Origin: Desulfobacterales bacterium
GTDB lineage: Bacteria > Desulfobacterota > Desulfobacteria > Desulfobacterales > JARGFK01
DNA length: 43,736 bases
Assembly (NCBI GenBank): GCA_029211065.1
Contig: JARGFK010000030.1
Coordinates: 1 to 43,736, forward strand
Direction of reading: 5' to 3'
Shown: one piece after another, positions 371 through 13,018 of the stretch
How positions within the stretch are numbered: position 1 is the stretch's first letter
Layout of the letters: each line of letters opens with the position of its first letter
Made by a program: the position numbers and the translations under genes
Notes under the pieces: model-generated
Told to the model about the DNA's origin: nothing
Databases searched by the model: none
The model's input: the letters and a program-made list of their open reading frames with translations, nothing else

Positions 371-792
371 ATCTGGTTGAGCAGATCGGCAGCGGCATCC
401 AGCGCATTTTCGATATATGCCGGGAATATGGCGTGGCCAAACCGAAGTTTGAAATTTCAGAAGATTGGGTAACGGTGGTGTTTCCTCGTTTGCCCGGAAG
501 AGTTATCCGGAAAGTCACCGACCAAGTCACCGACCAAGTTGCCGACCAAGTCACCGACCAAGTCCTGAAGCTGTTGAAAATACTTGAAGGGACTGAGGCT
601 GGCAGCCTCTGGGTCATGGAGCAACTGAAGCTCTCCCATCGACCGACATTCAGAAAGAACTATCTTCATCCAGCGGTTGAATCTGGGCTGATAGAGATGA
701 CCATACCCGACAAACCGCGCAGCAGCAAGCAGCGCTATCGGCTGACGGCGAAGGGAAGGGATTTTCTTGAAAAACAGGGAGGAAACCAGTGA
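367..792 (+). pseudogene. C-terminal part of an AlbA/HATPase-type ATP-binding transcriptional regulator
   Basis: The segment starting MNLVEQIGSGIQRI is the end of the HATPase_c_4-like domain found in regulators that begin with an AlbA_2 (formerly AAA_4) domain. After the VVFPR strand comes a short tandem V-T-D-Q repeat, then a winged-helix region with an S-x-K-Q-R-Y-R-L-T-x-K-G pattern near the C-terminus. These proteins normally have about 400 or more residues; only about 142 remain, and the upstream sequence belongs to an unrelated S8 peptidase, so the gene is 5' truncated by rearrangement. Its TGA overlaps the GTG of hsdR by 4 bases (GTGA). Such regulators are often found inside type I restriction loci, which fits the neighbour. 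An ATG at 367 could still give a short HTH-only protein. Confidence 0.6.
512..564 (+). repeat. 12-bp tandem repeat inside the regulator fragment
   Basis: About 4.4 copies of a 12-base unit (AAGTCACCGACC, third copy with two changes) encode a run of V-T-D-Q units. The period is a multiple of three, so copy-number changes keep the frame. It is probably a linker between the ATP-binding and winged-helix parts. Confidence 0.85.
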
Positions 793-3700
793 GTCCGGCG
801 CTGTACACTGAAGACACCCTTGTGCAACAAACCACCGCTGAGTACCTGGAGCATCAATTAGGCTGGGAGTCTGTTTATGCCTACAACACCGAGACCTTCG
901 GACCGGAGGGAACCCTCGGCCGAGGCGATGACCGGGAGGTAGTGCTCACCCGATATCTCTATTTAAAACTCATGGAATTTAACCCCGGCCTTCCAGACGA
1001 TGCGTACCAGGAAGCCGTCCGTCAAATTACCTCTATCACTGCCGCCCAGACGCTGCTGACGACGAATCGGGAAAAGCACGAGCTGATAAAAGATGGCATC
1101 CAGGTTACCTTTCGCAACGACAAAGGCGAGCGCGTGCGGCAGCGCCTAAAGGTATTCGATTACGCCGATCCGACGAACAACCACTTTCTTTGCGTGCGGG
1201 AATTTTGGGTGCGGGGCGATCTTTACCGGCGGCGTGCGGATATTGTGGGGTTTGTCAATGGTTTGCCGCTGCTGTTCATGGAACTGAAGAATGTTAGCAA
1301 GGACATTCGCGCGGCTTACGAAAAGAATTTTAAAGATTACAAGGACACGGTTCCCCACCTGTTCCATCACAACGCCTTTGTGGTGCTGGCAAACGGCATG
1401 GATGCAAAGCTGGGTTCAGTGACCAGCCGGTTCGAACACTTTCACGAATGGAAGCGTCTGGCCGAAGATCAGCCCGGCGCAGTTGAAATGGAGACGCTGC
1501 TTAAGGGCGTTTGCGACAAGCGAAATTTTATGGACCTGGTGGAAAACCTTATCGTTTTTGATGATTCTTCGAGCGGACCCAAAAAAATTCTGGCGCGCAA
1601 CCACCAGTTCCTGGGTGTAAACCGCGCCATCGAAGCAGTCGTGGATCGTAAGAACCGCCAGGGCAAGTTGGGCGTTTTCTGGCATACCCAAGGGGCAGGC
1701 AAGAGCTACTCCATGGTGTTCTTTACACGGAAAATCCACCGCAAGCTCGGCGGCAACTTCACCTTCCTGATCCTGACCGACCGTGAGGATCTGGATACCC
1801 AGATTTACAAAACTTTTGCCGGATGCGGCGTAGTGGACAATGACCGAGATCCCTGCCGGGCATCCAGCGGGAAACACCTAAACCGCCTGCTGGTCCAGCA
1901 CAAGTCACATATTTTTTCGCTGATTCAAAAGTTCAATCAGGATGCAAACTCGGCTGCGGGCCACACTCTGCGTGATGACGTCATCGTCATCACCGACGAG
2001 GCGCACAGGACCCAGTATGGGACCCTGGCGCTGAACATGCGAAATATACTGCCAAATGCCAGCTACATCGGTTTTACGGGCACGCCGCTCTTCAAGGATG
2101 ACGAGATAACACGGCGGGTGTTCGGAGAGTACATATCGACGTATGACTTTCAACGGGCGGTCGAGGACAAGGCCACCGTGCCGCTTTATTATGACTCGAG
2201 GGGTGAAAAGCTCGGTATAGTCATTGGTGATCTGAATGAGCGGGTCGCTGAGAAGATTGAGGAATTGGAGATTGAAGACATTAATGTGGCGCAGCGGCTG
2301 GAGCAGGAACTCAAGCGTGATTACCACGTCATCACCGCCGGTAAGCGGCTGGACCAGATTGCACGGGATTTTGTGCGGCACTATTCCAATGCTTGGGAGT
2401 TGGGGAAAACGATGCTGTTGTGCATTGACAAGATCACCTGTGTACGCATGTATCGGCTGATTGAGTTTTATTGGCAGGAACGCATCCGGGAGCTGGAGAA
2501 GGAATCAACCTCAGCCGCCGACGAGCAGGAAGAGTCATTCCTCCGTCGGCAGGTCGAATGGATGCGGGAGACACGCATGGCAGTGGTGATCAGCGAGGAA
2601 CAGGGCGAGGTGGAAAAATTCCGCAAATGGGACCTGGAGATCGCCCCGCACCGTCGGTTGGTCAAAGATGGGATCGATCTGCCGGAATCCATGCGGCAGC
2701 AACCTCAGTTTCGAAACATGCAGCGCATGGCGCTGGATGATGCCTTCAAAGAAGAGCAACATCCCTTCCGGATCGCTATCGTATGTGCGATGTGGCTGAC
2801 CGGCTTCGACGTCCCATGCCTGTCGACACTGTATTTAGATAAGCCTCTTAAAGCCCATACACTCATGCAGGCGATTGCCAGGGCAAATAGGGTCAACGAA
2901 GGAAAGAATAACGGACTTATCGTCGACTACTGCGGGATTCTCAAAAATTTGCGAAAAGCCCTTGGGACATTTGCCGGGCAGGGGGCGGGCGGACAAGGGG
3001 GCGAAATAGAACCGGCAAAGCCCGAAGAGGAACTGCTTGCCGACTTGGTTGAGGCCATTTCATTTATCAGAGCGTTCTTAAGGGATCGCGGGGCATCACT
3101 GGATGAAATCATTACAAAGACTGGTTTCGAACGCAATGGGGCAATTCTTTCCGCCAAGGAGGCAGCAAACGAAAATGATGAAACGCGCAAACGTTTTGAA
3201 GTGATGTGCAGGGAGGTATTTAAGAAATTCAAGGCATGTATCAACGTCAAAGAAATCAACGTTCATCGGGCGGAATACGATGCCATCAATGTCGTTTATA
3301 AGAGCTTGCAACAGGATCGTGAGAAGGCCGATATTACCGATATCATTCGCCAATTACACATGGTGGTTGATAAGGCTATTGTGGTGAATCCGGATACTGC
3401 GGCCGAGGGCCAGAAGCCTTTCGATATCAGCAGGATTGATTTTGACAGACTGCGGAGGGAGTTTGAACGCAGCAAGGCTAAGCAGACAACGATCCAGAAC
3501 CTTAAGCAAGCCATCGAACAGAGGCTCAGGCGGTTGCTCGAACAGAACCCGTTGCGTACGGACTTCCAGCGGCATTATGAGGAGATCGTGGCTGAGTACA
3601 ACCGCGAGAAAGATCGGGTCACCATCGAAAAGACTTTTGAGGAACTTTTTCGTTTTTCCAATGGGCTTGATGAAGAAGAGAGACGGGCAATGCGTGAAGG

Positions 3701-4027
3701 GCTTGATGAAGAGTCCCTGGCGATTTTTGATCTTCTGAAGAAGCCGGATCTGACTTCATCAGATATTAGACGCATCAAGGCTGTGGCTGTCGGGCTGCTT
3801 GAGAGGCTAAAAGCCGAGAAACTCAGAGTGGATCACTGGCGAGACAAAGAGTCGACCCGCGATGCTGTCCGGATTGCAATTAGGGATTTTTTGTGAGCGA
3901 TGATACCGGTCTGCCCATTGATTCCTATAAGGAAAAAGAGGTCGATATCAAAGCTGAAGAGGTCTTTGTTCATGTATTTAGAGCTTATCCTACGGTGCCC
4001 TCACCTTTCTATGCAGCGGCAACATGA
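789..4027 (+). CDS. hsdR: Type I restriction enzyme, R subunit (HsdR), with a single-base frame break near the C-terminus
   Basis: HsdR is the ATP-dependent translocase and nuclease subunit of type I restriction-modification enzymes. The main open frame (789-3896, GTG start overlapping the previous stop) gives 1035 residues. Visible motifs are the PD-(D/E)xK-type nuclease (D151, E165-x-K167), Walker A GAGKS at 302-306, DEAH at 403-406, a T-G-T-P motif III, and a Q-A-I-A-R-x-N-R motif VI. After the TGA at 3894-3896 the -1 frame immediately continues with 44 codons to 4027 that read as the usual HsdR tail (S-D-D-T-G-L-P-I-D ... V-F-R-A-Y-P-T-V-P-S-P-F-Y). One base appears lost, or a T TTT TTG slip site at 3887-3893 is used. 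No hsdM or hsdS lies in the window; they may be to the left or lost. Confidence 0.93.
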
Positions 4028-5505: not shown

Positions 5506-6492
5506 CTATATTCTGGACCTTGCCAGGGTGGACGGTACGAAAATTTCATCGATGCCGAGTCTTCGTTCGGCCAAACCCTGACTATAATGATACCTCAGAA
5601 AAGTTTCCAGTGTTTTTCTGTTTGCTTCGATCCCGTAAGGCCAGAAATCCTTTCCCATCAGTTTCTGGGCCTCCCGGACAACACCGTCGATCCAGGGATA
5701 GGTGGCCATCGGCTCGTTTTCCTCCAAAAGCCGCTCAATAGCCAAATCCTTGGCTGCCTCAAAAGCTTTGAACAGGCTTGTCGGCAGCCAGGGGAGCGTA
5801 TCGATTTTTTTCTTGTGCACGGCCAGAAGGTGCATGATGGGGAAGATCCCCGTGCGCTGGAAGTACGCCTGCTCCTTTTCGATAAAGTTTGGAAAAAGGC
5901 GCACGATGTCGGGATGCCCTTCGTTAAAACAGGTCGGTGCCCTGGGGCCGATCAGCGCGTCGATCTCACCGTCCGCCAGCATCCGGGAAAGGGTCTTATC
6001 CGGTCCGATGCGTTTAAGCTCGACCCCTTCAGGGGCTGCGAAAGATACTTTTTCCGTCCGGCTGGTTTCATAGATGCCGCCCGCCCGCCAGCGAATGTCG
6101 GAGGGCTTGATTCCGTATTCGTCCTCCAGAATGCCCCGGATCCACACCGATGCGGTGACCTGATATTCCGGCGATCCCACGAGCTTGCCTTTTAGATCTT
6201 CGGGTTTGCGGATACCGCTGCGTTTGTTGATATAAATGCCGTTGTGCCGGAACCGCCGCCCCGGGAAAACAGGAATCGCCATGTAAGGGCAGCTGTTGCG
6301 GGCGGACAGGGTGAGATAGTTGGAAAAGGAAAGCTCGGAGACGTCAAATTCTTCAAAATGCAGGGCGCGGTGAAACATTTCTTCCGGTTCCAGGTCGATA
6401 AAGGTGGCATTGCACCCTTCGATCTTCACCTTCCCGGTTACAAGCGGCTGAATGCGGTCATAGTTCCAACAGGCGATGGTAATCGATTGCAT
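5506..6492 (-). CDS. 4,5-dihydroxyphthalate decarboxylase-like / NMT1-type substrate-binding protein
   Basis: Encodes 328 residues similar in style to proteins annotated as 4,5-dihydroxyphthalate decarboxylase (Pht5-like), which share the periplasmic-binding-protein fold of NMT1/THI5 proteins. Recognisable parts are the opening strand (S-I-T-I-A-C-W-N-Y-D-R), F-D-V-S-E-L-S-F-S-N-Y, the R-K-P-E-D-L-K-G-K-L-V-G-S-P-E-Y segment typical of this fold, and a late helical region with P-Y-G-I-E-x-N-R-K-T-L-E. There is no signal peptide, so it should be cytoplasmic, and no transporter genes lie beside it. AAGGAT precedes the ATG. Whether it decarboxylates phthalate-type substrates or only binds a ligand cannot be told from the sequence. 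Confidence 0.8.
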   Translation of the reverse strand: MQSITIACWNYDRIQPLVTGKVKIEGCNATFIDLEPEEMFHRALHFEEFDVSELSFSNYLTLSARNSCPYMAIPVFPGRRFRHNGIYINKRSGIRKPEDLKGKLVGSPEYQVTASVWIRGILEDEYGIKPSDIRWRAGGIYETSRTEKVSFAAPEGVELKRIGPDKTLSRMLADGEIDALIGPRAPTCFNEGHPDIVRLFPNFIEKEQAYFQRTGIFPIMHLLAVHKKKIDTLPWLPTSLFKAFEAAKDLAIERLLEENEPMATYPWIDGVVREAQKLMGKDFWPYGIEANRKTLETFLRYHYSQGLAERRLGIDEIFVPSTLARSRI

Positions 6493-6878: not shown

Positions 6879-7070
6879 TCACTCGATAATTTCGATGGCA
6901 TCTGCCCCGCACTCTTTGGCCGCCCGCCTCACGACTTCATGGTATTTTTCAGGAATGGGGTCCAGCTTGACGATGGAAAGAAGCTGGTCTTCGTCATACT
7001 CAAAAACCTCCGGACAGAGTAGATTGCAATTCCGATCTCCCATGCACTGTTCGGTGATGATGGCTTTCAT
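6879..7070 (-). CDS. Small single-cluster ferredoxin
   Basis: A 63-residue electron carrier. The cluster motif is C9-x2-D12-x2-C15-x3-C19-P with a distant Cys54. The Asp at the second ligand position matches the arrangement known from Pyrococcus furiosus ferredoxin, where Asp replaces a Cys ligand and the cluster converts easily between [3Fe-4S] and [4Fe-4S]. After Cys54 the usual Pro is Gly (C-G-A-D-A-I). AAGGAGG is placed well before the ATG. It lies just downstream of the PAS-domain gene on the same strand with about 30 bases between them, so the two may be co-transcribed. No partner oxidoreductase is encoded next to it. Confidence 0.88.
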   Translation of the reverse strand: MKAIITEQCMGDRNCNLLCPEVFEYDEDQLLSIVKLDPIPEKYHEVVRRAAKECGADAIEIIE

Positions 7071-7101
7071 TGAATCCTCCTTAATCTTTTAAAGTTTAGT
7101 A

Positions 7102-7464
7102 TTATTCTTCCGGGTCAACCGTTTTTTTGAGCCGAACGGTCTGAACACACCCGAGGAACTCGCCCGCTTTTATCAAGGGCGTAACGGTCACAGAAATGAC
7201 CTTGCCATAGGGCCGTGCTTCGTAATGGACCGGATCCGTCCGTCCGTTTTTGAAATCCCGCAACATCCGGTCCAGTTTTTCATTTGCGGGCGGCTGATGG
7301 TGTGTGTGGATATCCGTCCCGATATAGTCAGGCTTGCGGTTAAGGATTTTGGTTGAATGCCGGTTATAAAAGAGGAGCGTTCCGTCGGCATCGATAATGC
7401 TCACGGCAAGGTCCACATTGTCCAACGCAAGATAGGCCATCTCAATTAATGGGTTTGGTTTCAT
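7102..7464 (-). CDS. Stand-alone PAS-domain protein
   Basis: The 120 residues form essentially a single PAS domain: V-S-I-I-D-A-D-G-T-L-L-F-Y-N-R at about 21-35, G-T-D-I-H-T-H-H-Q-P-P in the middle, and a last strand V-T-V-T-P-L-I ... L-G-C-V-Q-T-V. It resembles the PAS domain attached to DUF438 proteins. The His-rich segment (H-T-H-H) might hold a ligand, but no cofactor can be assigned from sequence. There is no output domain, so it would act through a partner protein. It precedes the ferredoxin gene in the same direction, which would fit redox or metabolic sensing; that link is inference. Confidence 0.8.
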   Translation of the reverse strand: MKPNPLIEMAYLALDNVDLAVSIIDADGTLLFYNRHSTKILNRKPDYIGTDIHTHHQPPANEKLDRMLRDFKNGRTDPVHYEARPYGKVISVTVTPLIKAGEFLGCVQTVRLKKTVDPEE

Positions 7465-7652: not shown

Positions 7653-10172
7653 CTACTGGATGGCCATGGTGACAGAATACCCCAGACCCTGGGGGGCGGT
7701 GCCACCATCTTCGATGGTTTCTTCCATCTGAACGGTTCTGTCCAGGGGTTCTGCGGTCTTGTCCGGGAATGCAACTTCCCCGGGAACTTTTTCTAAAACC
7801 TCAACTGTAACCCCTTCCAGCATTTGGGTGTGAACCACATCGAACATCATCTGAAGCAGCGTCATTACTGTAACTTGGGGAAATGGTGTCTGGAGCGTTT
7901 TAGAAAGCCCGGCCAGTTTTTCGGCCAGCCGTTTGCATGCCATCAACTCGTCCATCCGGCACACCAGGTCTCGAGAGTTTGCGCGGCCGTCATATCGGGC
8001 GCGGATGCGTTCAAGGTCCTGGGCAGGGCTTTTTTCAAGCAACCTGCGGTTATTGCCCTTGTTAAAGGCCGGGTTGGCATCGAGACACTGAATGATGCGG
8101 TCGTCGGCTTTTGAGCGTTCAAGGGCGATGTGCTCCGCGAGTCTTAGCTGAATAGGTTCAGGTATACCGACGACAACCGCTTCGAGCGGCCGTGCGCTCA
8201 ACACCAGGCGCTGCTGAAATTCCGTGCCGGAACTTTCCCAGAAGCTGCGGCTGAACTGAATATAGGCCGGTTCCAGGTCGCCGTTTTGAGCGAGGGTCTG
8301 CATCACTGTGTTTATCAGCTTAGGGAATTCACGGGCGGTGCGCCCAAAGAGTCTTTCATCTGTGATGATTTCGTAAATGATGCCGATGATGGCGTACCAA
8401 TCCTGCAGATGGAACACCAGCGGCAGGTCTTCATGAATCTGTTGCAGGAGATGGTTGGGAAAAAAGTGAGAAGGCGTTCCATAAAACGGCGTTCCGCCCA
8501 GCCGGGGCTGGGGAAGCGATGCGCGTGATTTGCGTTCATAGTCAACAGCGGTTTCCAGATCGATCAGGCCGATGCTGTAATTTTGGGCTGATGACAAAAA
8601 TTGCGGATAATCGGCCGGGTTGCCGGCAACGAGGAGATTGTCGGGCTTCAGGTCCCGCATGGCCACCCGGTTTTCTCCCATCCAGGCCAGCAGCGCCAGC
8701 AGGTTGGCGGCCATGGCGCACATGATCGGCTGATTGCGGTCAAACAGCCGATCACTTGTATAGGAAAGGAGCAGTTGCCGATAGCGTCGACCGGTTGCAA
8801 TGTGGGCTGAACGGAATTTGGCAAGATGGGTTTCAAGAGCTGGGCGCTTCCGATCGAGCCCGTCCGGCGGGGCAAGCGCGATTTCCCGCCCGGCCATGCG
8901 GCACAAATACAGGTTTTTTGTCTGCCATTCGGAAAGATCGACGGCGCCATCCGATCGCGGCCCGGCAGCGCCGATTTCCTCCTGGAAGGTCGTAAAGGCT
9001 TGGTGCAGGTCCGGCCATAGATCAGCGCCCGGTTTGCCATATTTTGCTTCAAACTGAATCTGATCGGTCAGAATGTCCGTGTCCGCCTGGACTTCATCCG
9101 CGATGAGGGTTTCAGTCCGATGAAAGTCCTTTGCCACGCGGCTTAAAAAGTAGGATTTGGCCAGATCCATGAAAAAGGCAAAGCTGTCGCCTACCTTGAG
9201 AAAGCGCTGGTTTGCCGGAGACTGGAGCAGCCAGCGGGTGTATCCGGCCTCGATATGATCGTCCGACAATTTGGCCGCTTCCGGTAAAGGGTGAATTTTC
9301 TTGAGGATAACGGATATGTTGGGGATGACGCATTCTTTCGGCACCAGCTTGCGCCTGATTTTGGCCTCGGCCTGGATGCGTTCGATATAATCTTGAAAGT
9401 CGGTAATGGGGACCGGCGGGATCTTGACCACCATATGCGTATCAAATATCACATAAAAGCACTGGCTTTTACTGCCGGTGTTTTCACCGATGGCGGCAAT
9501 GGCCATGCGTCGCGACCGCCAGCTGCCGTCAATTTCGATTTTCAACTCATAAACGCCCCTGTTGTCGGAATCGCTTTCTTCAACAGATTCTATTTTTACC
9601 GGCGCGTCAGGGGGCGCGCCGATCGTTTCGCGATAAAGATCGAGAAAGAGCGTTGCCACATCCATAAAGCCGGCCAACTGAGGGAGGTGCCCGTCGGGCC
9701 TGGATTCAGCCTTAACGCCGGGTTTAACTTTTTTGACAAAAAACAGTCGTCCCCGTTTGATGCCGACGAACGCCAGGAGGCCGAAAATCAGAACACCGGC
9801 AATTTCCGGCAGCAGGGAGCCGATTCTGCCGGCAATGCCCCGCAGGACCGACGCCGGCCCGGACACCGAACCGGCGGACGTGGTTAACCATTTCAGTGTG
9901 TCATGAAAATGAGCCGTCAGCAAAGGTCTGTAGCAGCTCGGCGCCGCCCATGAACCCTGAACGATTTCATTTATATCCGTCAGCGCGACCCACCACTCCC
10001 GGCCGCCGCGCTGGTAAAGGATCTTGTCGTCGACATACCGGATGTTGTCGGCGATAATGGGGTTTCCTGCAAAGGGGATCATGATCTGTTTTTGGAGCCC
10101 GGCAAGCGTCCACCAGGCCACCAGGCCGATGACAACCGCTATTAATAGTCGCACTGTCCAGCGTTTCAACAT
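7653..10172 (-). CDS. Membrane-anchored protein with an unusual Ser/Thr kinase-like domain
   Basis: Encodes 839 residues. Two membrane segments (about 7-24 and 121-139) frame a periplasmic part of roughly 95 residues; the rest should be cytoplasmic. Kinase hallmarks: K250 in V-V-K-I, E269 in a helix-C-like segment (Q-A-E-A-K-I-R-R-K-L), catalytic loop MRDLKPDN with D507, K509 and N512, a metal-binding D538 in D-L-E instead of D-F-G, a G-T-P-F-Y-G-T-P activation segment at 560-567, and D591-W in the helix F position. The glycine loop is degenerate, and about 230 residues separate helix C from the catalytic loop, far more than in standard kinases. Key catalytic residues remain, so activity is plausible. 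The ATG overlaps the stop of the upstream barrel gene by one base, implying translational coupling. No known family recognised beyond the kinase fold. Confidence 0.75.
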   Translation of the reverse strand: MLKRWTVRLLIAVVIGLVAWWTLAGLQKQIMIPFAGNPIIADNIRYVDDKILYQRGGREWWVALTDINEIVQGSWAAPSCYRPLLTAHFHDTLKWLTTSAGSVSGPASVLRGIAGRIGSLLPEIAGVLIFGLLAFVGIKRGRLFFVKKVKPGVKAESRPDGHLPQLAGFMDVATLFLDLYRETIGAPPDAPVKIESVEESDSDNRGVYELKIEIDGSWRSRRMAIAAIGENTGSKSQCFYVIFDTHMVVKIPPVPITDFQDYIERIQAEAKIRRKLVPKECVIPNISVILKKIHPLPEAAKLSDDHIEAGYTRWLLQSPANQRFLKVGDSFAFFMDLAKSYFLSRVAKDFHRTETLIADEVQADTDILTDQIQFEAKYGKPGADLWPDLHQAFTTFQEEIGAAGPRSDGAVDLSEWQTKNLYLCRMAGREIALAPPDGLDRKRPALETHLAKFRSAHIATGRRYRQLLLSYTSDRLFDRNQPIMCAMAANLLALLAWMGENRVAMRDLKPDNLLVAGNPADYPQFLSSAQNYSIGLIDLETAVDYERKSRASLPQPRLGGTPFYGTPSHFFPNHLLQQIHEDLPLVFHLQDWYAIIGIIYEIITDERLFGRTAREFPKLINTVMQTLAQNGDLEPAYIQFSRSFWESSGTEFQQRLVLSARPLEAVVVGIPEPIQLRLAEHIALERSKADDRIIQCLDANPAFNKGNNRRLLEKSPAQDLERIRARYDGRANSRDLVCRMDELMACKRLAEKLAGLSKTLQTPFPQVTVMTLLQMMFDVVHTQMLEGVTVEVLEKVPGEVAFPDKTAEPLDRTVQMEETIEDGGTAPQGLGYSVTMAIQ

Positions 10173-11365
10173 TAAAATCCAAACCCGAAGGTTACACCAT
10201 AAGTGAGGGTATTGTTTTCCGGTTCATAGACAAATAACCCGGTGGGCGCACCATAATAGGTCAAGATTGCATAATCGGACGGGCCCACATCCCAGTAGCG
10301 GAAAAAGGGTTCGATGTACCAGGATAATCTTGTAGAGATATGATTTCTGAACTGAAATGAAATCCTTACCCCAAAACCATCCCCGAAGCTTTGGGTGTTC
10401 TCGGGATCGTTGTATCCCGGATCTGCATCGCTGAGATGGCTGGTAACCCATCCTTTCCAGAAAAGATCATATTCCCCGCTAAAGCCCCACGACCATTTAC
10501 TTGAAACAGGTCCGGTCAATTTGAATCCTATTGGCGTATAAAGGTATAGAATCTCGCGCGCGTAACCGCCGGAACCCTGAATCGTATCGTTCCAGTAACG
10601 CAGCCCAAATCCGAGAAAGGGCGTCACTTTATTTTTACCCTGGTAAATATTACCCCCGAGCAGGGTGCGAATTTCAAATAGGTAGTCGTCGGTATCCGCT
10701 TTGACCGGGGTGCCGCCCCAGGTGCTGCCATCATAATCGAGACTGCCGGCTGCGTATTCAAGGCTGCTGTCGATCATGACGGCTTTGTGGTTGTATGCAT
10801 ATCGTCCCATGATACCATACAGAAAGCCTTTTTCAGACATGAGCGATGGTTCTTCATACTCAAAACGGAAGACGACCGGAGCAATCTCAAAGCTGTGAGG
10901 TGATGATGATCCGCTTGATGGAGTCGCAGTGAAAGAAAGCTTTTCATTACCCGAGAGATGCTGCGGCAGAGACGCAATGTTTATTTTTACGAAATAGGTT
11001 TCAATTATTTTTCCATTTACATTTATAAATCGACTGATTTTATTGTCGCTCAGCCGCCAGATTGCATGTGCCCAAAAGGTTACGCCGGCGTTTATGAGCC
11101 ACTCGTCGGCAGTCCAATGAGCATCCAATGGCCGGATGTTTTTAATGGTCGTTTGGTTGATAAACTTTTTCCAGGGTTCAAAAGCGGTATCTTTCAGTAC
11201 ACCCTTGTCGCCGTATACTTGGACAATGGATCCGTTTTCACTTTGCCAGAATCCGGCAAACGCGTTTTCATTGCCCCAGGCTTGATTGCGGTCAAACATA
11301 GACGTGCTTATCATGGTTGCAGATATAATGATGAAAAGGTAATGGATCAGTCTGTTTTTTCTCAC
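10172..11365 (-). CDS. Outer-membrane beta-barrel protein with an N-terminal extra domain
   Basis: Encodes 397 residues from a GTG start with a strong GGGAGGAG just upstream. A signal peptide (about 1-30, ending near N-Q-A-W-G) is followed by a roughly 110-residue domain starting G-F-W-Q-S-E-N-G-S-I-V-Q-V-Y, reminiscent of small lipocalin-like domains. From about residue 160 the sequence has alternating strands rich in Tyr, Trp and Gly and ends Y-G-V-T-F-G-F-G-F with a terminal Phe, the typical outer-membrane barrel signature. It shares an operon with the kinase-like gene, whose ATG overlaps this stop (TAATG). Function unknown; its partner suggests an envelope sensing or assembly role, which is inference. 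Confidence 0.8.
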   Translation of the reverse strand: MRKNRLIHYLFIIISATMISTSMFDRNQAWGNENAFAGFWQSENGSIVQVYGDKGVLKDTAFEPWKKFINQTTIKNIRPLDAHWTADEWLINAGVTFWAHAIWRLSDNKISRFINVNGKIIETYFVKINIASLPQHLSGNEKLSFTATPSSGSSSPHSFEIAPVVFRFEYEEPSLMSEKGFLYGIMGRYAYNHKAVMIDSSLEYAAGSLDYDGSTWGGTPVKADTDDYLFEIRTLLGGNIYQGKNKVTPFLGFGLRYWNDTIQGSGGYAREILYLYTPIGFKLTGPVSSKWSWGFSGEYDLFWKGWVTSHLSDADPGYNDPENTQSFGDGFGVRISFQFRNHISTRLSWYIEPFFRYWDVGPSDYAILTYYGAPTGLFVYEPENNTLTYGVTFGFGF

Positions 11366-11401
11366 AACTCCTCCCTTAAAGATGGAAAAGAAAAAAATGT
11401 T

Positions 11402-11439
11402 AATATATCACACCGCGCTCTTTAGCGGAAAGTTTCCGC
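11402..11439 (-). promoter_or_regulatory. Candidate promoter with a palindromic operator before the barrel/kinase operon
   Basis: On the minus strand a TATATT hexamer (11402-11407) lies about 37 bases before the GTG. A 15-base palindrome, GCGGAAA-G-TTTCCGC read on the plus strand (11425-11439), covers the expected -35 position, so a regulator bound there could control transcription. Prediction from sequence only. Confidence 0.3.
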
Positions 11440-11486: not shown

Positions 11487-11511
11487 AAAAAAAGCTCCGG
11501 TTGCCAGAAGC
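11487..11511 (-). terminator. Rho-independent terminator of the acs operon
   Basis: On the minus strand, beginning 13 bases after the nuclease stop, a GC-rich hairpin (GCTTCTGG, loop CAA, CCGGAGC) is followed directly by seven T. It fits the end of the three-gene operon read toward lower coordinates. Confidence 0.7.
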
Positions 11512-11524
11512 AGCTAAACAGCTT

Positions 11525-13018
11525 CTATCCGGTGCCCGGCACAACTTTCAGCTTCTTTATCTTATCCAGCAGCACCCGCATGGCCATGCAGTCGTCCTCG
11601 TTGTAAGCCAGTATCCGGTCGCGAACGCGCCCGTCACCGGTCTCGACCCAGCGGTGATACCATTCGATGGAAGCCGCGCCGGAAGGGTCGTTGTCACGCC
11701 AGGAAAACCCGCAGAACCTGGCCAGTGTTTTGATGGAATAATCAGATACAGGCCATTCCGTAAAGGGTTTAATGACATCCAGATACAGGTCCACCGTGCG
11801 GTCTTCGGGAAAAAGCAACTCGAGTTCTTTCCCTGATATGACCGTGGGATATTTCTGCTGGAGCCTGCGCCAGACAGTCCTTTCGTAGGGCGAATAATAG
11901 AAAATCGCGCAGGGTTGTTTTTGCCTGATATAGCCACAGGCTTCCTGAAAGGCCCGCACCTCTTCGGCCGGGGTGGGGGCCTGCATCAGGAAAGCGACAT
12001 ATTTTTCCGTTAGGGGGTTGCCGTTTTGCTGCTCCACAAAGCCGTGCAGGTAGCATATGTCCCGGAACGGATCGGTTTCAATGTCGAAAAAGAGGGCCAT
12101 TTCCGTATTCGGCAACGCTATCGGCGCCTTTAGATACGGCGCTGCCGATTGGTCGCACAGCAGCCTGGCCCGTTCATGGAACGTTCGGAGCATATCCGGC
12201 CCAATGCGGGGGAATACGGTTTTAGCTCCCTGGATAAAGGGGGCCGGATCTTTTTCAGCCAGGTCGGCGACGCTTTTGAATCGGGTCGATAGGACATTCC
12301 GGCGCGAGCGGCCCAGTTCCGGGATCAGCGTGAGGTCGTCGGCTGTCTTGAGCGCTTTAACACACACGCCTTTCCAGGGGCATAATTTGCATACAGCGGC
12401 TAGGGCCGGGCGGGTGTCGCCGTTTTGCTGCAGGACGACCCGGACCGACGCCAGGGTGTATTCATAGATGTCCCACAGGCTGCGACGGGATGCGCGTCCG
12501 TTCTGGTCATCCAGTCTGTAAACGGTTTCCGCGCCGCTGATGTCCCAGATAAACGGCGTTCGGCCGTCACTTGCCCCCATTTTTTCAAGGATATCGGTAT
12601 AGAGCGCCAGTTGCACGGCATAATGCTTCTTGGGGCGGCCGCCGTTTTCATCCTTTCCTTCAAGACCGGCGCCGCTTTTGATATCACCGGCCACGTAGCC
12701 GCCGTCGGCAAGCCGCAATAGATCGGGGTCGCCCAGCAGGTCAGCGGCGCTGATTCTTGCGCCGTAGATCAGCGGCGCTTTTTTTGCCATCAATTCCACT
12801 GTTTTTGCGGCCCTTTCGCGACCGGAAAGGGCCCGCAGGTTTTCAAACGGTGCCTGAAGGGATTCGATGACTTCGGCTTCAAACAAGTTGCCTTTTTCCC
12901 ATAAAAGCTGGACAAACGGGCTGACCGGGTTTTTCAGGGCCGGGTCGCCGAACAGGTCCATGGTGACCCGGTGCGGGCACTGGATGTAATTGTAGAGCAT
13001 GGAGGCGGTTATTTTCAT
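11525..13018 (-). CDS. TM0106-family RecB-like nuclease with Fe-S cysteines and RNase H-like domain
   Basis: Encodes 497 residues. The N-terminal half is a RecB/Cas4-type nuclease: C14-P-H-R, GDPDLL with D98, GDIKSG with D112 and K114, and the Q136-x3-Y140 motif. C14 together with C210-x2-C213-x5-C219 matches the split cysteine pattern that holds a [4Fe-4S] cluster in Cas4 and AddB nucleases. The C-terminal half looks like a DEDD/RNase H-like exonuclease with F-F-D-I-E-T-D and Y-N-E-D-D-C. This layout is that of the TM0106 family, whose role is not settled. There are no cas genes nearby, so it is not part of a CRISPR locus. Its ATG overlaps the hydrolase stop (ATGA), so it is translationally coupled to it. 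Confidence 0.88.
   Translation of the reverse strand: MKITASMLYNYIQCPHRVTMDLFGDPALKNPVSPFVQLLWEKGNLFEAEVIESLQAPFENLRALSGRERAAKTVELMAKKAPLIYGARISAADLLGDPDLLRLADGGYVAGDIKSGAGLEGKDENGGRPKKHYAVQLALYTDILEKMGASDGRTPFIWDISGAETVYRLDDQNGRASRRSLWDIYEYTLASVRVVLQQNGDTRPALAAVCKLCPWKGVCVKALKTADDLTLIPELGRSRRNVLSTRFKSVADLAEKDPAPFIQGAKTVFPRIGPDMLRTFHERARLLCDQSAAPYLKAPIALPNTEMALFFDIETDPFRDICYLHGFVEQQNGNPLTEKYVAFLMQAPTPAEEVRAFQEACGYIRQKQPCAIFYYSPYERTVWRRLQQKYPTVISGKELELLFPEDRTVDLYLDVIKPFTEWPVSDYSIKTLARFCGFSWRDNDPSGAASIEWYHRWVETGDGRVRDRILAYNEDDCMAMRVLLDKIKKLKVVPGTG

Follow-up and report, generated by a model that had tools for sequence, protein, structure and literature searches.

A divergent Hanks-type kinase family of Desulfobacterales with candidate FHA and PP2C partners, and a barrel gene that overlaps one of its members

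In the OdhI/GarA systems, a kinase phosphorylates a threonine next to an FHA domain, which then binds that same threonine (PMC2784874), and bacterial kinases have been suggested to dock FHA proteins through flexible regions once these are phosphorylated (PMC12077195). In the kinases of class III lanthipeptide synthetases, which phosphorylate serine and threonine, DFE takes the place of DFG (PMC10604976), so that the canonical DFG motif is not a strict requirement in active enzymes. Here we consider a kinase gene (P0001) and an outer-membrane barrel gene (P0002) which overlap in the genome of a Desulfobacterales bacterium (assembly GCA_029211065.1); the window analysed is a stretch of 43,736 nucleotides, positions 1 to 43,736 of contig JARGFK010000030.1. 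P0001 belongs to an unnamed, divergent family of Hanks-type serine/threonine kinases which is widespread in the Desulfobacterales. The best reading of this family, in which we place moderate confidence, is that its members would work in a switch with an FHA adaptor and a PP2C phosphatase, the barrel gene of the window probably being a passenger. Activity, substrates and binding are proposed here by analogy, and the reading draws on the family, its motifs, the predicted fold, the gene neighbourhoods and the statistics of a tail motif.

In an alignment of 94 family members, the beta3 lysine K250, the catalytic-loop residues D507 and N512 and the metal-binding D538 (the lysine, RD-KPxN and D-x-E elements) are kept in 93. 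The conserved blocks are K250, R506-D507-L-K-P-x-N512, G535-x-I-D538-x-E-T, Q555-P...G560-T-P...T566-P and Q590-D-W, and the catalytic lysine, RD-KPxN, D-x-E, GTP..TP and QDW are each present in 90-93 sequences. The alphaC glutamate is probably E269, with glutamate in 79 sequences at this position and aspartate in 11. DFG is replaced by D-[VFLIM]-E in 93 of the 94, taking the form D-L-E at residues 538-540 of P0001. In P0001, 227 residues (277-503) separate the end of helix C from the catalytic loop. The spacing from K250 to D507 is 244-261 residues across the family (median 256); an ordinary kinase encoded in this genome has 94 there. An earlier sequence-only reading of the locus had described the four catalytic residues, D-L-E for D-F-G and a gap of about 230 residues, all of which are confirmed here. 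Conservation across the aligned members makes the giant insertion and the D-L-E traits of the whole family rather than oddities of one gene, just as the conservation of the kinase residues means that the resemblance to kinases is not due to chance.

A search of the species collection returned 174 family loci, and neighbourhoods and record titles were taken from 80 listed ones; by title, nearly all of the 80 are Desulfobacterales or 'Deltaproteobacteria'. Full-length relatives are present in 22 of 58 genomes of the order, and sampling across the phylum found the family in 7 of 395 genomes, one of the seven outside the order. Up to three copies occur per genome, and cultured species with a family member include Desulfatibacillum alkenivorans and Desulfosarcina widdelii. 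In a tree of the kinase core, P0001 groups with L062, from the Olavius algarvensis Delta 4 symbiont (44% over that core), and with L063, both with strong support in the Shimodaira-Hasegawa-like approximate likelihood ratio test (SH-aLRT). Neither Pfam nor NCBIfam holds a model of the family's own, and Pfam sees it weakly. The Pkinase match of P0001 (residues 486-622) scores 20.6 bits, below the gathering cut-off of 31.7, while all 38 scanned members match the model (best E-value 2e-8); the cut-off is a matter of sensitivity and not a feature of the fold.

The AlphaFold2 model of the kinase, made from 70 aligned sequences, has a predicted local distance difference test score (pLDDT) of 86. It places two N-terminal helices around a beta domain. 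Five strands of the N-lobe (192-251) precede helix C (259-276); alphaF spans 583-604, and a helical extension reaches residue 789 before a disordered tail that begins at 793. The cytosolic part comprises residues 172-839. The mostly helical stretch at 277-500 includes the usual beta4-beta5-alphaD-alphaE and runs to about 160 residues beyond an ordinary kinase. The Foldseek matches listed for the 839-residue model are all protein kinases, at modest E-values (best 3.9e-3), and alignment with VIA-align to CDK, DYRK and CLK chains gives Z-scores of 14.8-15.7 over 237-261 residues, with root mean square deviations of 4.0-5.1 Å. A kinase fold is well supported for P0001 by this predicted model. Model, structural matches and alignment agree with the earlier description of an inner-membrane protein with a real, if divergent, kinase domain and a large insertion. 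Judged by hydropathy, two membrane segments with a loop of at least 60 residues between them occur in 43 of 92 family members, while 22 lack any membrane segment and are soluble; the rest are arranged otherwise. The small beta domain of P0001 (residues 29-72) is probably periplasmic, to judge from the two hydrophobic helices that flank it.

Gene neighbourhoods point to possible partners. When the neighbours of the 80 kinase loci were clustered, the commonest was a protein of about 250 residues with two FHA domains, which flanks the kinase at 18 loci; at 14 of these its gene lies directly upstream on the same strand. PP2C occupies position -2 in four of the FHA-kinase loci and is also found at L051, where PP2C and FHA genes come after the kinase gene. 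At about 13 loci, including L079, L081, L088, L095, L103, L105 and L117, a divergently oriented ClpB-like chaperone gene (named from the start of its sequence) neighbours the FHA-kinase pair or the kinase. In the genome of P0001, an FHA orthologue (P0003; two FHA matches, 51% to the FHA protein of L119) and PP2C are adjacent on another contig, C87, beside a CHASE2-kinase gene; the CHASE2-Pkinase, PP2C and double-FHA genes are consecutive there (L153:7674-11967). Of the 22 genomes of the order that bear the kinase, 19 have the FHA orthologue, as against 11 of the 36 without the kinase, among 58 in all (Fisher p 4e-5, ignoring shared ancestry).

A second line of evidence comes from the C-terminal tails of the kinases. 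Past the last conserved residue these are acidic and of low complexity, about 30 residues long, with ...EATI, ...LATTI or ...YQATM as frequent endings. Of the clusters formed at 60% identity, 22 of 46 have [AST]T[ILMV] within the last 12 residues, compared with a mean of 1.7 and a maximum of 5 in 500 shuffles; the serine version of the motif shows no excess over shuffles in these clusters. The tail motif resembles one in the FHA protein, where the linker between the two FHA domains carries T-[MI]-x-[MILV] in 17 of 18 proteins, counted by eye. The linker threonine of the protein in the same genome as P0001 is T111. From this resemblance we infer a switch between kinase tail and FHA linker which would be like OdhI/GarA in its logic and would fit the suggested docking of FHA proteins on flexible kinase regions.

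Most kinases of the family have an inner-membrane anchor, and in many of them a short periplasmic domain probably detects a signal in the envelope. Once activated, the kinase would phosphorylate threonines at two places, its own disordered C-terminal tail and the linker of the cytosolic two-FHA adaptor. Since FHA domains read phosphothreonines, docking and switching would then work as in PknB/PknG-GarA/OdhI, and the PP2C phosphatase would reset the phosphorylation state. For the kinase of the window, adaptor and phosphatase would be supplied from contig C87. It is conceivable, and suggested here only tentatively, that the tail motif mimics the linker motif so that both compete for the same FHA pockets, with the large helical insertion that separates helix C from the catalytic loop serving as a regulatory module linking membrane sensor to active site.

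A number of observations weigh against this scheme, which is built on sequence and prediction. The motif is missing from about a third of the tails, and many stop one residue past the threonine, whereas canonical FHA reading would need a residue at +3. The strict T-phi-x-phi pattern is only moderately enriched on the tails, with 15 of 46 clusters against a mean of 5.1 and a maximum of 15 in shuffles. An FHA gene adjoins the kinase at a minority of loci (18 of 80) and not at the window locus, 3 of the 22 kinase-bearing genomes have no clear FHA orthologue, and the co-occurrence p-value is uncorrected for common descent. The barrel gene, in the same operon and overlapping by one base, could still be functionally coupled to the kinase in this lineage. 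Finally, an ordinary kinase, the CHASE2-kinase of C87, likewise has the FHA protein encoded nearby, and the protein may serve that enzyme. Taken further, this would give P0001 an accessory role in the CHASE2-kinase/PP2C/FHA system of C87, its tail threonine being a substrate of that other kinase. It is true that the FHA and PP2C orthologues of this genome adjoin the CHASE2-Pkinase gene and not the kinase of the window; however, the FHA gene flanks the window kinase's own family at 18 loci and the threonine motif sits on the kinase's own flexible tail, so that an accessory role appears rather unlikely.

There remains the barrel gene, for which the kinase-FHA-PP2C reading has no part. Both open reading frames lie where the sequence-only reading placed them, and the overlap that joins them can be read directly (...GGATTTTAATGTTG...): on the minus strand the barrel gene ends GGA TTT TAA, and the ATG of the kinase begins within that stop. 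The region has 8 terminator-like sites where 5.1 are expected. One such hairpin parts the pair from the upstream nuclease-like gene, making a two-gene transcript plausible, and the two genes are probably co-transcribed. A palindrome-controlled promoter had also been proposed. The palindrome GCGGAAAGTTTCCGC does exist, but its regulatory role is unsupported, since it has a single copy in the genome and a few hundred palindromes with perfect 7-base arms around one base are expected by chance in 4.9 Mb; as the operator of a regulon it was rejected on its copy number.

P0002 itself has no Pfam match. Its relatives at 40-51% identity match PF13505 (OMP_b-brl) or PF03797 (autotransporter), some of them below the gathering cut-off, so that similarity to outer-membrane barrels shows through homologues and not in P0002 alone. 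Comparison with solved structures gave only chance-level matches to crystallins, and a single-sequence model, made with no alignment, returned no usable fold (pLDDT 32). The N-terminal domain recurs in L181, a barrel of the same family and the same two-domain build, and on an OmpW-type barrel (L182:4683-5735), to which it is fused. The homologues bear out the earlier description of P0002 as a barrel-type protein. The barrel family occurs in 29 of 291 genomes of the order, counting the genome of the window.

The sequence-only reading had further suggested a two-membrane signalling unit, in which the barrel, or its N-terminal periplasmic domain, would sense at the outer membrane and contact the periplasmic domain of the kinase. 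The one-base overlap and the likely shared transcript speak for such a unit, as does a barrel homologue (L053:7480-8601) whose N-terminal stretch resembles, by eye only, the small beta domain of the kinases. Furthermore, the family kinases of L050 and L051 lie directly downstream of TonB-dependent receptor genes (L050:6670-8727, L051:5102-7174), one with only a few bases between. At both loci a response-regulator gene comes before the receptor gene; Pfam assigns that of L051 to the NtrC type, and that of L050 is its homologue. The kinases adjoining these receptors, however, have one membrane segment or none, and about a quarter of the family kinases are soluble, which likewise speaks against the unit. 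The search for co-occurrence of the pair found no barrel relative beside a family kinase in the 28 other genomes of the order (flanks read to 1.5 kb for some and several kb for others), nor does a barrel gene adjoin the nearest kinases, L062 and L063. In the flanks read, the arrangement was seen in the window only, an outcome that the sequence-only reading had itself named as one that would refute its proposal. An overlap of one base arises with unrelated genes too, as at L110, where a family kinase shares one base with a gene that is aldolase-like to judge from the start of its sequence, and on its own it is weak evidence for a functional pair. The barrel gene has a GC content of 46%, compared with 55-60% in the kinase and upstream genes. 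Its absence beside the kinase elsewhere and this difference (46% versus 55%) make the barrel gene most likely a passenger of local acquisition rather than a conserved sensor, and the two-membrane unit is judged distinctly unlikely.

Least likely of the alternatives is a pseudokinase scaffold, in which phosphotransfer has been lost through the D-x-E change and the insertion, the protein acting by binding: DFG is replaced across the family, P0001 scores under the Pkinase cut-off and bacterial pseudokinase families are known, but these are defined by loss of the beta3 lysine, the HRD aspartate or the DFG aspartate (PMC12599244), all three of which are retained in 93 of 94 members, while the activity of DFE kinases (PMC10604976), the conserved activation segment and the tail threonine suggest phosphorylation. 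D-x-E is, by that analogy, compatible with kinase activity and need not mean inactivity. An anti-phage role was considered separately and rejected (best PADLOC match E 0.02); the weak BREX PglW and MADS matches in the family scans look like shared kinase motifs.

Table 1. Coordinates of the gene pair, its flanking elements and the parts of the two proteins within the window (residue numbers refer to the protein concerned)
Feature	Position	Strand	Basis or remark
Kinase gene (P0001)	7653-10172	-	839 aa open reading frame
Outer-membrane barrel gene (P0002)	10172-11365	-	397 aa; GTG start behind GGGAGGAG; signal peptide
TAATG stop/start overlap of barrel and kinase genes	10170-10174	-	read in sequence
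Terminator-like hairpin with T run, upstream of barrel gene	11494-11511	-	terminator scan
15-bp palindrome GCGGAAAGTTTCCGC	11425-11439	.	single copy in 4.9 Mb genome
Barrel protein layout			signal peptide, N-terminal domain ~31-135, barrel ~155-397, C-terminal GFGF
Barrel protein, N-terminal domain	10961-11275	-	also in L181 and L182
Kinase, first membrane helix, residues 1-26	10095-10172	-	alignment, predicted model
Kinase, small all-beta six-strand domain, residues 29-72	9957-10088	-	predicted model
Kinase, second membrane helix, residues 120-138	9759-9815	-	alignment
Kinase, N-lobe strands, residues 192-251, with glycine-rich loop G229-C238 and K250	9420-9599	-	model, alignment
Kinase, mostly helical stretch from helix C to catalytic loop, residues 277-500	8673-9344	-	model, alignment
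Kinase, catalytic loop A-M-R-D507-L-K-P-D-N512	8637-8663	-	alignment
Kinase, metal-binding motif G-L-I-D538-L-E-T replacing DFG	8550-8570	-	alignment
Kinase, activation segment / P+1 loop QPRLGGTPFYGTPSH, residues 555-569	8466-8510	-	alignment
Kinase, disordered acidic tail, residues 793-839, with T813 (RTVQM) and T835 (VTMAI)	7656-7796	-	pLDDT mostly <50; motif conservation

A small PAS-domain protein is encoded immediately downstream of the kinase gene and in the same orientation (7102-7464, minus strand), followed by a short open reading frame that is ferredoxin-like by eye (about 6880-7071, minus strand) and an NMT1/phosphonate-binding-like gene (5506-6492). On the other side, positions 11525-13018 (minus strand) encode a protein with PD-(D/E)XK and RNase H-like domains. 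A Type I restriction enzyme R subunit is encoded at 789-3896 (plus strand).

The family described here has no Pfam or NCBIfam model although it is widespread in the Desulfobacterales, and with its candidate partners it offers a defined, testable kinase-FHA-PP2C system in sulfate reducers; a limited literature search (Desulfobacteraceae, threonine kinase, FHA) found no studies of such a system in these organisms.

Comparison with described systems brings out both common and distinct features. With the Hanks-type bacterial serine/threonine kinases (PF00069) the family shares the fold, the lysine, RDLKPxN, the metal-binding aspartate, the activation segment and the alphaF aspartate; those kinases too are often membrane-anchored, and they have PP2C and FHA partners of the kind proposed here. 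It differs in D-x-E for DFG, in an R-D without the preceding histidine, in the extra residues (about 160) between helix C and the catalytic loop, in the long helical C-terminal extension and in its N-terminal membrane helices, and P0001 falls below the Pfam cut-off. The D-F-E or D-x-E metal motif is held in common with the kinase domain of class III/IV lanthipeptide synthetases (LanKC, LanL), and 37 of 38 family members give a weak NCBIfam match to LanL. In P0001, however, this match spans residues 474-571 only, no sign of lyase or cyclase domains appeared in the family scans (Pfam, NCBIfam), and membership of LanL was rejected at 17.8 bits against an equivalog cut-off of 650. As for P0002, its relatives match the models of OMP_b-brl and autotransporter-type barrels (PF13505, PF03797), whereas the protein itself matches no Pfam model and carries an extra N-terminal domain common to few barrels. 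The closest parallel to the proposed switch is the PknB/PknG-GarA/OdhI system of actinobacteria, with which it would share a kinase, an FHA adaptor and a PP2C phosphatase, as well as threonines in a flexible stretch as the proposed phospho-switch (Thr14/Thr15 in OdhI, PMC2784874). By contrast, the kinase of the Desulfobacterales belongs to a different subfamily, its candidate adaptor carries the motif in a linker that joins two FHA domains, and an additional motif is found on the tail of the kinase.

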